Origin: Acidobacteriota bacterium
GTDB lineage: Bacteria > Acidobacteriota > Polarisedimenticolia > J045
Assembly (NCBI GenBank): GCA_003696075.1
Contig: RFHH01000138.1
Span: 1 to 35,590 of the forward strand
Length of the DNA: 35,590 nt
Direction of reading: 5' to 3'
In this document: piece after piece, positions 31,398 to 35,590 of the stretch
How the letters are laid out: every line of letters starts with the position of its first letter
Numbering within the stretch: position 1 is the first letter of the stretch
Program-made: the position numbers and the translations under genes
Notes under the pieces: generated by a model
What the model saw: only the letters and a program-made list of their open reading frames with translations
Told to the model about the DNA's origin: nothing
The model's database searches: none

Positions 31398-32291
31398 TCA
31401 GGACTTGCCGCCGCAGGGATTCATTCCCGACTTCCCGCCACAGGGGTTCATCCCCGACTTCCCGCCGCAGGGATTCATTTCCGACTTCCCGCCGCAGGGA
31501 TTCATCCCCGACTTCCCTCCACAGGGGTTCATCCCCGACTTCCCGCCGCAGGGGTTCATGGCCGCCCCGGATGCCGCGTTGCTGGCGACCAGGCTCACGC
31601 CGATCGAGATCTCCTGACCGACCTTCGTTCCGATCAGATCCGCGCCAGCCGGCCCCGTCACCCCGAAATCGGCCAGCCGCACGGTGAACTCGCCGCGGCC
31701 GGCGAGGAGGTCTCCCGGCATCTTCTGGCGTGTCTTCTCGCTCTCGGGAAGGTAGGTGACGCGGGCCGGGAAACTCACGCGCTTCGTCCTTCCGCGAACG
31801 GTGAGCTTCCCGGTGACATCCATCGAGTAGGTCTTGAACTCGCGCGACGATTTCAAGCTCTTGACATTTCGGACGCCGTCGATCGTGAACCGGATCGAGG
31901 GATGGCGCGCCGCATCGAGCCAGTCGCGGCCTTGGAGATGTTCATCCCGGAGCGGAATGCCGGTCTTGAGGCTCGAGACGGGAACGGTGAGCTCGCCGCG
32001 GGCGCCTCGCTCCGGGTGCATGGGATCGAATTCGATCCAGCCCGACACCGCGTTCGACGTGCCCACGATGTCCTCCAGGGGGGCCTCGCTCTTGAACGTC
32101 ACGACATTGCGGCCCATCGGGTCGTCGACGGCGAATCGGATGGGTCCCTTGCCGCCGCAGGGATTCATGCCCCGCGGGTGATGGCGGCTGGCCGACTTCG
32201 GTGCAGCGGCGGCCGGACCGGGGACGACAGCGGCGGCCAGGGCCATGGCGGCCGCGAGAGCGGCGAGGGGATAGATCCTGGCGATTCTCAT
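31398..32291 (-). CDS. exported YceI-family protein with seven MNPCGGK motifs
   Basis: The 297-residue protein has a signal peptide (1-30, ending GPAAAA). One MNPCGGK motif follows at residues 42-48, then a YceI lipocalin-like domain (about 50-240). Typical YceI features include SEAPLEDIVGTSNAVSGWIEFD, VPVSSLKTGIPLRDEHLQGRDWLDAARHPSIRF and KLTVRGRTKRVSFPARV; members bind isoprenoid lipids in a beta barrel. The C-terminus is six tandem 9-residue units, MNPCGGKSG (one reads MNPCGGKSE; the last is cut at MNPCGGKS), residues 245-297. All seven cysteines of the protein lie in these motifs. A thiol-based role (metal binding, cross-linking or modification) is an inference. The ATG at 32291 follows AAAGGAGC. 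It is the last gene of the FGE operon. Confidence 0.88.
   Translation of the reverse strand: MRIARIYPLAALAAAMALAAAVVPGPAAAAPKSASRHHPRGMNPCGGKGPIRFAVDDPMGRNVVTFKSEAPLEDIVGTSNAVSGWIEFDPMHPERGARGELTVPVSSLKTGIPLRDEHLQGRDWLDAARHPSIRFTIDGVRNVKSLKSSREFKTYSMDVTGKLTVRGRTKRVSFPARVTYLPESEKTRQKMPGDLLAGRGEFTVRLADFGVTGPAGADLIGTKVGQEISIGVSLVASNAASGAAMNPCGGKSGMNPCGGKSGMNPCGGKSEMNPCGGKSGMNPCGGKSGMNPCGGKS
31401..31559 (-). repeat. 27-bp tandem repeat encoding MNPCGGKSG units
   Basis: Six in-phase units of 27 bases encode the C-terminal tail of the YceI protein. Units differ almost only at third codon positions (AAC/AAT, TGC/TGT), plus one change that turns SG into SE. This shows selection for the peptide rather than recent copying of identical DNA. 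Opposite-strand open frames here (PPQGFIPDF repeats) are mirror readings. Confidence 0.92.
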
Positions 32292-32403
32292 CTTCGAAGC
32301 TCCTTTGCCGCGGAACCCGCAAGCGCCTCCCGAAGACGCGGCCGCGAAGCGGTCCGGATCCGGAAATGCGGCGTCTTGGGGTCTCCAGGGCGGGATCCGG
32401 GGC

Positions 32404-32763
32404 TCAGCCCCGGGCGAGGCGTTCCCGGCGGCGCCGGCGAACGACCTCCAGGAAATGAATGCCGGCGGCGAGCAGCCAGGCCGGCGCGGTGAGCGAAAGC
32501 ACCGAAAGGGCGTTCTTGTCGAGGACCCCCTTCGGCGTCGGTAGAAGGCCCAGGTGGAACTCCGGGCGGCGCACCGTCCGCTCCACCTTCGCCCCGTCGT
32601 AAAACCCGGCGGCGGCCAGGGGATCGGAAGGGTCGACGGGCGCCGACACCGTCTCGACCACCTCGAATTTCGTGTAGTAGTGGCGTCCCGTGGCGACCCA
32701 CATGCCCAGCGAGACGAGCGTGGCCGCTGCGGCGAGCGCCGTGACGATCGTTTTCGGTTTCAT
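32404..32763 (-). CDS. small membrane protein of unknown family
   Basis: The 119-residue protein has a hydrophobic helix near each end: KTIVTALAAAATLVSLGMWVA (about 4-24) and ALSVLSLTAPAWLLAAGIHFLEVV (about 85-108). Between them lies a roughly 60-residue segment, probably outside (KFEVVETVSAPVDPSDPLAAAGFYDG, then EFHLGLLPTPKG). It ends with the basic tail RRRRRERLARG, which by the positive-inside rule points to the cytoplasm. It has no cysteine. I do not recognise the family. The ATG overlaps the stop of the FGE homologue by four bases and the YceI gene follows 112 bases later, so it is probably part of the same system, perhaps anchoring the two exported proteins. Confidence 0.7.
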   Translation of the reverse strand: MKPKTIVTALAAAATLVSLGMWVATGRHYYTKFEVVETVSAPVDPSDPLAAAGFYDGAKVERTVRRPEFHLGLLPTPKGVLDKNALSVLSLTAPAWLLAAGIHFLEVVRRRRRERLARG

Positions 32764-33755
32764 CGCGTTTCCTCGGAGTGGACATCGGCGGCGCAACGGA
32801 AGCCGACGTTGGTGAACGCCTCGTCCGGGGGGCTCGAGCCGCGGTAATGCGTGGAATAGGCACCGCAGTAGGCCGCGCTGCAGAACCAGCTGCCGCCGCG
32901 AGCGACGCGGAGCGTTCCGTTGTCGGGTCCCTTGGGATCGGTCCGCGGTGACCTCGCGTAGTAGGCCGGGTCGTACCAGTCCGCGGTCCACTCCCAGACG
33001 TTGCCGATCATGTCGTACAGCCCCCACGCGTTGGGTGCGAAACTGCCGACCGGCGCCGTACGCTCGTAGCCGTCCGTGGCGTCGTTGCGATGAGGCCAGG
33101 GACCCTGCCACACGTTGGCCGGGACGACGGTCTCCCTTGCCGACATCGCATGCGCCGCCGCCGATGTCCCGGCCGGCTTCGCTGCCGGTTCCGGACCGGA
33201 CGGTGCGGCGCGGGCTCCCGGCCTGCCCGGCTGGTGCGGCAACGCCGTGAAGTGCGAGGGCGACCCCGCCCGCGCGGCGTATTCCCACTCAGCCTCGGTC
33301 GGAAGGCGCCGGCCGGCCCAGCGCGCGTAGGCCCGGGCGTCGAACCAGCTCACGCAGACGACGGGGTGGTCCTCGCGGCCTGCGATCGTGGAGCCGGGGC
33401 CGTCCGGATGGCGCCAATCGGCTCCCGGAACCGGTTCGAAGGCGGTTTCCCCCGGCCGATAACCCCAGCAGTACCCCTTGCGCTCGGCGGAGGTCACGTA
33501 CCCGGTCGCGTCGACGAACCGGGAGAACTCGCGGTTGGTCACCTCGTAGCGGTCGAGGGCGAACGGCGAGAGCACCACTTCGTGGACGGGACGCTCGTCG
33601 TCGGGACCGATCTCCGAGCCGAGGGCGATCCGGCCGCCCGGGACGAGCACCTGGGGCGCTCCCGGCGGAGAAGAGCCGCCCGAGGTGCCGAGCGCGAGAG
33701 CCACGACCGCCGCCGAGGCAGCGGCGAGGAAAAGGATCGGGGATCGTCCGAGCAT
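32760..33755 (-). CDS. exported formylglycine-generating-enzyme homologue
   Basis: The 331-residue protein is a full-length member of the formylglycine-generating enzyme (SUMF1/FGE-sulfatase) family; true FGEs use copper and oxygen to oxidise a target cysteine to formylglycine. An N-terminal hydrophobic segment (PILFLAAASAAVVALALG) is a signal or anchor. Fold markers are VPGGRIALGSE, FALDRYEVTNREFSRFVDATGYVT, LPTEAEWEYAAR, WQGPWP, APNAWGLYDMIGNVWEW and VARGGSWFC. The active-site pair is Cys292 and Cys297 in WFCSAAYCGAY, with the same spacing as in human FGE (C336/C341), and TNVGFRCA closes the domain. Many relatives (EgtB, PvdO) lack this pair, so oxidase chemistry is plausible. No sulfatase is encoded in the window; the partners are the YceI-repeat and small membrane proteins. 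The ATG follows GGAGG. Confidence 0.88.
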   Translation of the reverse strand: MLGRSPILFLAAASAAVVALALGTSGGSSPPGAPQVLVPGGRIALGSEIGPDDERPVHEVVLSPFALDRYEVTNREFSRFVDATGYVTSAERKGYCWGYRPGETAFEPVPGADWRHPDGPGSTIAGREDHPVVCVSWFDARAYARWAGRRLPTEAEWEYAARAGSPSHFTALPHQPGRPGARAAPSGPEPAAKPAGTSAAAHAMSARETVVPANVWQGPWPHRNDATDGYERTAPVGSFAPNAWGLYDMIGNVWEWTADWYDPAYYARSPRTDPKGPDNGTLRVARGGSWFCSAAYCGAYSTHYRGSSPPDEAFTNVGFRCAADVHSEETR

Positions 33756-33799
33756 GGCACCTCCACCCGCTCCGATAGCGGCGGGACCGCCCCCCTTCT

Positions 33800-33815
33800 G
33801 GCAAGTCCGGTGCCA
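33800..33815 (-). promoter_or_regulatory. sigma-54 (-24/-12) promoter of the FGE operon
   Basis: On the minus strand TGGCACCGGACTTGCC matches TGGCACG-N4-TTGCW. The GG (33813-33814) and GC (33801-33802) are separated by the required 10 bases, and only two conserved positions differ. The C of GC at -12 puts +1 near 33789, 34 bases before the ATG and upstream of its Shine-Dalgarno sequence. Such promoters need an enhancer-binding activator, none of which is encoded in the window. Confidence 0.7.
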
Positions 33816-33844
33816 CCCCTCGCGGGCAGGAGCTCGTGCCGTGA

Positions 33845-33860
33845 TTCCGTTGAAACGGAA
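33845..33860. promoter_or_regulatory. perfect palindrome upstream of the sigma-54 promoter
   Basis: TTCCGTT-GA-AACGGAA is a perfect 7+7 inverted repeat with its centre about 64 bases before the predicted sigma-54 start. It could bind the activator of the FGE operon. Alternatively, as RNA, it lies about 65 bases after the stop of the upstream acyltransferase gene and could mark its 3' end, though it has no T-run and a very tight loop. Confidence 0.5.
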
Positions 33861-33924
33861 GGAGATCCGCTGGAAGGACCGGGAAGGAGCGAGCGGCGGC
33901 CCCCGATCGGTCGACGGAGCGGTG

Positions 33925-35331
33925 CTACGCCGGCGCGGCGAGCCGCTCCGTCGTCTCGTCGAGATCCTGCTCGATCTCGCGCACGATCCGCTCCGGATCG
34001 GGAATCAACCGCGCATCGGAGGCGACACCGAGGCGCACCGACCCCGCATAGCTGCAGATGCTGATCCCGAGCCCCAGGCGACCCGACTGCGGCACCCAGA
34101 AGAACATCCCGGTGATCGGGCGCCCGGCGAGAGAAAGCGGCTGCCGGGGACCGGGCACGCTGGTCACCACCGTCGTGGCTTTGGTGGCGAAGGCCCTGAC
34201 GACCCCGGACTGCACGGCACGCGGGACGCGCGACACCAGGCGGAGGAGCGTCTCGACGACCGCCGGCTCCGCCGAGCGCTTGAGCGATGAGAGCCGGCGG
34301 CGCAGGATGCGGAAGCGCTCCACCGGATCGGCCACCCCGATCGGCAGCGGAAGGAAGACGAGCCCGAACTCGTTGCCCAGTTCCCACATGCGCTCGAGGG
34401 GCCGGAGGTTCACCGGAACCGTGGCGCGGACGCTCATGCGGACCGGAACGGATCCCTTCGCCCTCAGGTAGCGCCCGAGTCCGCCGGCCACCGCCGTCAG
34501 GAGGATGTCGTTCACGGTGCCGCCGCAGCGCTCGCGAGCGCGGTGGATCGGCTCGAGCGGTATGGGGCCCGACCACGCGGCCCTTTTCGCGGTGCCGAGC
34601 CGCCCCTTGAGAGGCGTCCGCGGATCGGGAGGGCGCAGCGCCAGGCGGGTGAGCGCGGCGGCAAACGCGGCCGCCCGGACGGGCCAGGGGGCCGCACGCC
34701 GCATCCGAGCGGGCCGGGCGAGGAGCTTCATCGCGTCCGGCAGCATTTCGGCGACGAGCCGCTCCGCCGTCGCCGCGTCCCCCTCCCGCCTCCGGAAGAG
34801 TTCGAAGAGCGGGTTCGCTCCGGAGCGACCCTCGCGGTCGGTCAGGGACAGCAGCAGCAGCATCAGCGCGATCCCGTCCGCGATGCAGTGGTGGAGCCGG
34901 GCCACGAGCGCCCCGCCGCCGCGGTAGTTCCGGACCAGATGGAAGCACCACGGGGGCGCCTCCATGTCGAGCGGCGTCCCGAGCAGGGCGCTGACGAGTT
35001 CGGCCAGCTCCGCGTCACCTCCCGGAGCCGGAAGGACCTCCTCGCGGAGATGCCGGGCCGGGGAGGCCTGCGCATCCTCGATCCAAGCGGGGCGGCCCCG
35101 CCGATCTCGGCCCACGCGGCAGCGAAAACGGGGGATGGACCACAGCCGGTCCCTGATGAGCCGCTCGACCTCGGCACGGTCCGGCTCCCGGTCGAAGACG
35201 AGAACGCCGCTGACCATCATGAGGTTCGTCGGCTCGTCCATGCGGAGCCAAGCGCGGTCGGGACCCGAGAGCGGCTCGGCGCCGGCGAGCCGCGGCAGTG
35301 CTCCTTCCCGCCGGCGGGTCGAGCGCGTCAC
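33925..35331 (-). CDS. wax ester synthase/diacylglycerol acyltransferase (WS/DGAT)
   Basis: The approximately 468-residue protein is of the bacterial WS/DGAT family, which joins fatty acyl-CoA to a fatty alcohol or diacylglycerol to make storage lipids. The catalytic HHxxxDG motif is HHCIADG at residues 147-153. An opening motif (LSGPDRAWLRMDEPTNLMMVSGVLVF), GTVNDILLTAVAGGLGRYL and VTSVPGPRQPLSLAGRPI are all in family order and spacing. The start is uncertain. GTG 35331 gives the normal family length, but other in-frame starts exist at 35346 (GTG) and 35466 (ATG), and none has a strong ribosome site. The stop is 170 bases before the FGE start, with the sigma-54 promoter between them, so it is probably a separate transcript. 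The exact acceptor cannot be read from sequence. Confidence 0.88.
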   Translation of the reverse strand: MTRSTRRREGALPRLAGAEPLSGPDRAWLRMDEPTNLMMVSGVLVFDREPDRAEVERLIRDRLWSIPRFRCRVGRDRRGRPAWIEDAQASPARHLREEVLPAPGGDAELAELVSALLGTPLDMEAPPWCFHLVRNYRGGGALVARLHHCIADGIALMLLLLSLTDREGRSGANPLFELFRRREGDAATAERLVAEMLPDAMKLLARPARMRRAAPWPVRAAAFAAALTRLALRPPDPRTPLKGRLGTAKRAAWSGPIPLEPIHRARERCGGTVNDILLTAVAGGLGRYLRAKGSVPVRMSVRATVPVNLRPLERMWELGNEFGLVFLPLPIGVADPVERFRILRRRLSSLKRSAEPAVVETLLRLVSRVPRAVQSGVVRAFATKATTVVTSVPGPRQPLSLAGRPITGMFFWVPQSGRLGLGISICSYAGSVRLGVASDARLIPDPERIVREIEQDLDETTERLAAPA

Positions 35332-35590
35332 CGCCCGGCCCCGCACGCCGGCACGCGGCAGGCCAGCACCTTCCGTGTGAACCGCCTGCGGCGCATCCGC
35401 CCCGGGATCGAAGAGAGCGATGCCCGGGCGAACGCCGCCCTCCCCGCCGCCCGCGCTGCACGGCATCGCGGCCGGGAGGGATCCGCCCGCATCGCGCCGG
35501 TGGGGTCGCGGGCCTCTCCCGAGCGGGCGTCGTCGGAAACGGGGTCCTCGCGCTGGCGATGCAGCCGGCAGCCGGTGCGGCGGCCGCGAC
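35332..35590. other. right edge without an assignable gene
   Basis: This stretch upstream of the acyltransferase holds an in-frame extension of that gene (to 35466) without conserved sequence, and otherwise no recognisable coding region. The acyltransferase promoter probably lies here, but no convincing -35/-10 pair was found. Confidence 0.45.

Follow-up and report, generated by a model that had tools for sequence, protein, structure and literature searches.

We identified a sequence that is very probably the sigma-54 promoter of an operon encoding an FGE-family protein, located on the minus strand at 33815-33801 of a 35,590-nucleotide stretch of DNA (hereafter the window) from an Acidobacteriota bacterium (contig RFHH01000138.1). 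We infer that this core is used in the cell and that FGE, MID and YceI share one transcript; a nearby palindrome may be the site of an activator, whose gene would lie on another contig, and FGE may act on NPC cysteines. The features concerned are as follows.

33801..33815, minus strand: putative sigma-54 -24/-12 promoter core, TGGCAC-CGGAC-TTGC (sequence, window and genome scans)
33760..33764, minus strand: GGAGG, likely FGE ribosome-binding site (direct reading of the sequence)
32760..33755, minus strand: FGE-family gene, 331 aa, Cys pair C292/C297, loop SWFCSAAYCGAY (domain search, alignment)
32404..32763, minus strand: MID, 119 aa (ATGA overlap with FGE)
31398..32291, minus strand: YceI-domain gene, 297 aa (Pfam YceI match)
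31401..31559, minus strand: C-terminal YceI tail of six tandem MNPCGGKS(G/E) units (repeat reading)
33925..35466, minus strand: WS/DGAT acyltransferase, the upstream neighbour, ending about 65 bases before the palindrome

The probable promoter core and its recurrence in the genome

The minus strand at 33815-33801 reads TGGCACCGGACTTGC, that is, TGGCAC-CGGAC-TTGC (TGGCAC-N5-TTGC) with exactly 10 bases from GG to GC, which confirms the core and the spacing claimed in the initial annotation. This is the sole match of at least 9/10 to the sigma-54 core in the window, the runners-up reaching 8/10, and 0.01 sites of the TGGCAC-N5-TTGC type are expected in the shuffled window. The annotation had also placed the core 34 bases before the FGE start; the actual gap from the end of the -12 box to the FGE ATG (33755) is 45 bases, and 34 approximates the predicted length of the leader. 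RpoN-dependent transcription starts 11-12 bases after the GC, and a start near 33789, 12 bases past the -12 box, is predicted here, with a leader of about 34 bases. In the proposed mechanism, RpoN-RNA polymerase would bind TGGCAC-N5-TTGC as a closed complex, which an enhancer-binding activator, its gene located elsewhere in the genome, would open with ATP, and transcription would then proceed from near 33789 through this leader into FGE, MID and the NPC-tailed YceI.

Through a scan of the genome (3.29 Mb, 231 contigs) for TGGCAC-N0 to N12-TTGC, we observed 31 sites in all, 15 with the N5 spacing and 16 with the twelve other spacings together (N0-N4, N6-N12), an excess of N5 with a binomial p of 2e-9 against a flat spread (1 in 13 per spacing). 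Fourteen of the 15 N5 sites were intergenic, compared with 4/15 other-spacing sites (Fisher p = 5e-4); for this comparison genes were called with a home-made codon-usage caller, and 15 of the 16 other-spacing sites were examined, one being without a locus. A same-strand gene start lay at most 325 bases away from 13/15 N5 sites, the remaining two being one at a contig end and one within a gene, and the box-to-start gap was 29-57 bases at six N5 sites, including that of FGE (45). Activator domains were present within 2.5 kb of 4/15 N5 sites versus 0/16 other-spacing sites. One N5 site lies 5' of a type IV pilin-like gene with an activator beside that gene, and a pilin gene beside an activator is a textbook sigma-54 target. 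Besides this pilin-like protein, the products encoded behind the N5 sites other than that of FGE include a second prepilin-like protein, proteins of TonB-plug type, TolC-like and sigma-70 region 4 type, an activator-adjacent PAS protein and a subtilase.

Two of these loci display layouts of their own. At L012 (G000:C137:17264-17278), a sigma-54 core stands 40 bases 5' of the small sigma-70 region 4 protein, a possible sigma cascade. At L016 (G000:C188:197-211), a sigma-54 core accompanies the subtilase gene, and an inverted repeat with 9-base arms lies about 73 bases above the core, much as in textbook cases.

The initial annotation had named the lack of an rpoN gene as grounds for rejecting its proposal; the genome carries one rpoN (E = 1e-64), together with 27 activator-domain matches, 24 of them strong (over 200 bits), and no activator gene was found on the contig of the FGE operon. 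The published sigma-54 consensus is TGGCACG-N4-TTGC(T/A) (PMC9765219). The FGE core lacks this extended form, with C following TGGCAC where the consensus has G and C following TTGC where it has T/A, flanking bases that are common, not obligatory. Across the genome, T/A follows TTGC at 11/15 N5 sites, the FGE site not being among them. Under a flank model built from the 13 other N5 sites with the intragenic one left out, the FGE flanks scored -1.15 bits, which 15% of random flanks also attain.

The upstream palindrome and the competing explanations

Two inverted repeats lie at or near the core.

33845..33860, no strand assigned: perfect TTCCGTT-N2-AACGGAA palindrome, possible site of an activator (sequence and genome search)
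33799..33815, no strand assigned: inverted repeat TGGCA-N7-TGCCA overlapping the core, rival operator reading (genome search)

The perfect TTCCGTT/AACGGAA palindrome that had been claimed upstream was found at 33845-33860 (TTCCGTTGAAACGGAA, TTCCGTT-GA-AACGGAA), with its edge 29 bases above the -24 box, which places it some 56-71 bases ahead of the predicted start. This palindrome may be the site of the activator. An evenly poised possibility, compatible with a sigma-54 promoter, is that it forms a hairpin ending or protecting the WS/DGAT transcript, or that it is incidental. Its position about 65 bases past the WS/DGAT stop favors the hairpin, against which stand the lack of a T run behind it, the lack of any predicted terminator at the palindrome, and a minimum-energy fold of the 101-base stretch that leaves the hairpin unused (z = -1.0). 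An incidental origin is consistent with the frequency of such repeats, of which the window contains 133 that are perfect and have arms of 7 bases (loop 0-10), or 0.63 per 169 bp, but only two of these have mostly A/T arms, which are rare in this G+C-rich window. At 9/15 N5 sites, including that of FGE, a 7-base-arm repeat occurs at most 200 bases upstream; those of the subtilase, PAS and pilin genes lie about 70 to 135 bases upstream, and the FGE palindrome lies closer to its promoter than most of those at other sigma-54 sites, which again speaks against an activator site.

The initial annotation had suggested a genome scan for the paired core and palindrome; the core recurs at 14 other sites, among which the palindrome motif is shared only as one half-site, at the pilin gene. 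The exact TTCCGTT-GA-AACGGAA palindrome occurs once in the genome, and allowing up to 2 mismatches yielded 4 other places, none of them fully palindromic. At L014 (G000:C153), a TTCCGTT half-site precedes the -24 box of the pilin promoter by 22 bases. We estimate that a half-site within 200 bases at 1/14 other sigma-54 sites would arise by chance about one time in ten.

Turning to the core itself, an unlikely alternative is that it arose by chance and that the operon is read either from a promoter of the sigma-70 type or by transcription running on from WS/DGAT. Judged by the frequency of the other spacings, about 1.3 of the 15 N5 sites would be random, and a less favorable control, the reversed pattern at N5 only, gave 4 sites. 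The poor fit of the FGE flanks to sigma-54 flanks also speaks for chance, and read-through is conceivable in that WS/DGAT is encoded on the same strand and ends at 33925, 169 bases from FGE. However, no sigma-70-like promoter was found in 33700-33990 by a scan limited to the E. coli type, and the FGE site resembles the other sigma-54 sites in its intergenic position and its distance to the gene start. Because N5 accounts for 15 sites against 16 for twelve other spacings, and 14/15 N5 sites are intergenic, a chance origin of the sigma-54 core is improbable. Less plausible still is that TGGCA-N7-TGCCA, in exact overlap with the -24/-12 core, is the operator of an ordinary dimeric regulator: it is the sole place of this form in the genome and would account for the C and A following TTGC, but the extra CA has an estimated chance of about 5% once the core is given, and the 4 genome places at any spacing from N2 to N12 give no sign of a regulon.

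Collectively, sigma-54 control of the FGE operon, as initially proposed, is well supported by the site statistics, rpoN, the activators and the position of the core, and the palindrome is a possible activator site.

The FGE group and NPC-repeat proteins

The window FGE matched the FGE-sulfatase domain at 259 bits against a cut-off of 23 and carries two copper-binding-type cysteines (C-x4-C) that align to the pair in solved FGEs. In the YceI protein, one MNPCGGK unit stands at the N-terminus and six copies at the C-terminus; its gene follows MID after a gap of 112 bases, and MID itself had no Pfam or NCBIfam match. By eye, the translated products of FGE, MID and YceI look exported or membrane-bound, an appearance that, together with the membership of FGE in a copper enzyme family, would fit an envelope role, and the gene trio probably modifies cell-envelope proteins. 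An envelope-stress or metal signal, as put forward in the initial annotation, would be a candidate inducer.

Our comparison covered 60 distinct FGE loci in which the Cys pair is present, a number reached by our own grouping of 83 rows, some of which were copies. Six FGEs share the loop SWFCx4CGAY, namely those of the window (31398-33755), L088, L217, L219, L229 and L214 (with L273), and 5/6 of these loci have an adjacent protein with at least 7 NPC. Among the 54 other FGE loci, some with just 1.5 kb of flank, none had an open frame with at least 3 NPC. In a tree of the 60 FGEs, the six members formed one group with support of 86/45, and the branch to 53 others had 98/94, the long branch of L115 and the long member L219 blurring the edge of the group.

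The association extends to other kinds of protein. In G048 and G285, the same-strand gene immediately preceding FGE encodes a cytochrome P460 NPC-repeat protein, and in G102 it encodes a membrane NPC-repeat protein for which the DUF6789 match was sub-threshold only; in G195, an OmpA-like NPC protein is on a different contig from the FGE, which lies at a contig edge. The NPCNPC DNA pattern, which is blind to single-NPC repeats of the MNPCGGK type, including those of the window, occurred in 22/396 phylum genomes, mostly as short or out-of-frame stretches. Long open frames with at least 4 NPC were present in four genomes (G048, G285, G102 and G195), and the long NPCNPC protein adjoins FGE in three of the four.

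On contig QEVD01000333.1 of KSB1 (L088), we found the same three genes in the order YceI, FGE, MID, with a MID homologue 56% identical to that of the window and a YceI bearing NPCNPC units. MID was detected in 1/41 class genomes and 1/396 phylum genomes, in both cases the window's own, and a search of plasmids gave no match. The occurrence of MID in no other phylum genome, together with the KSB1 trio, suggests transfer. In L088 (1-5847), the translations, judged by eye, place the trio among ArsR-regulator-like, heavy-metal-associated (HMA) domain and thioredoxin-like genes, neighbors that hint at metals or redox. No sigma-54 site of at least 9/10 was found before the NPC or FGE genes of the related loci, the FGE of G195 being without upstream DNA.

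FGE is known to act on the CxPxR motif, a property exploited in protein labelling. The genome encodes CxPxR in 1/14 full-length sulfatase-domain matches, and not on the FGE contig, so the window FGE may serve in ordinary sulfatase activation. In FGE, two cysteines coordinate Cu(I), and the Cys of the substrate joins as third ligand and is oxidised by O2, with CXPXR as the minimum motif (PMC12123546, PMC4505483). Since both cysteines are kept and the loop is different, the NPC cysteines would be either the substrate of FGE or donors of copper to it. Tentatively, and as a possibility somewhat short of probable, we suggest that the SWFCx4CGAY FGE group oxidises, or takes copper from, the cysteines of NPC tails, with the module being switched by sigma-54 in this genome. 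As part of this FGE-NPC reading, NPC tails are proposed to have become attached to exported proteins of unrelated kinds, namely YceI, cytochrome P460, an OmpA-like protein and a membrane protein. The non-subscription literature, as searched, described no link of FGE with YceI, P460, NPC or non-sulfatase substrates, and a search on NPCNPC within the same scope returned nothing on proteins of the FGE-linked NPC-repeat kind.

The promoter would be of an ordinary kind, yet it would indicate that the FGE-NPC module is made on demand. The surprise is a loop-defined FGE group accompanying multi-cysteine NPC tails on unrelated proteins. If true, this would represent a class of FGE substrates or partners beyond CxPxR sulfatases, and a natural second motif would broaden both the biology and the use of FGE.

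Comparison with known systems

A search of the non-subscription literature for papers on sigma-54 with Acidobacteria found none. The FGE site resembles known sigma-54 -24/-12 promoters in its exact core, its 10-base GG-GC gap, its intergenic position and its short predicted leader, and the genome resembles known sigma-54 systems in carrying both rpoN and activators. By contrast, the site departs from known promoters at both flanking consensus bases, and its candidate enhancer, at about -56 to -71, is nearer than the usual sigma-54 enhancer range of -80 to -150. Relative to the periplasmic YceI family, the window protein scores over the Pfam cut-off and under the NCBIfam YceI cut-off, and adds MNPCGGK repeats at both ends. 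The window FGE shares the FGE-sulfatase domain and the Cys pair with FGE/SUMF1 (entries 2q17 and 6muj), whereas the loop CGAY...RGSSPP...FTN replaces CNRY...ARSSNTPDSS...N, and it is linked to NPC-repeat proteins rather than to CxPxR sulfatases.
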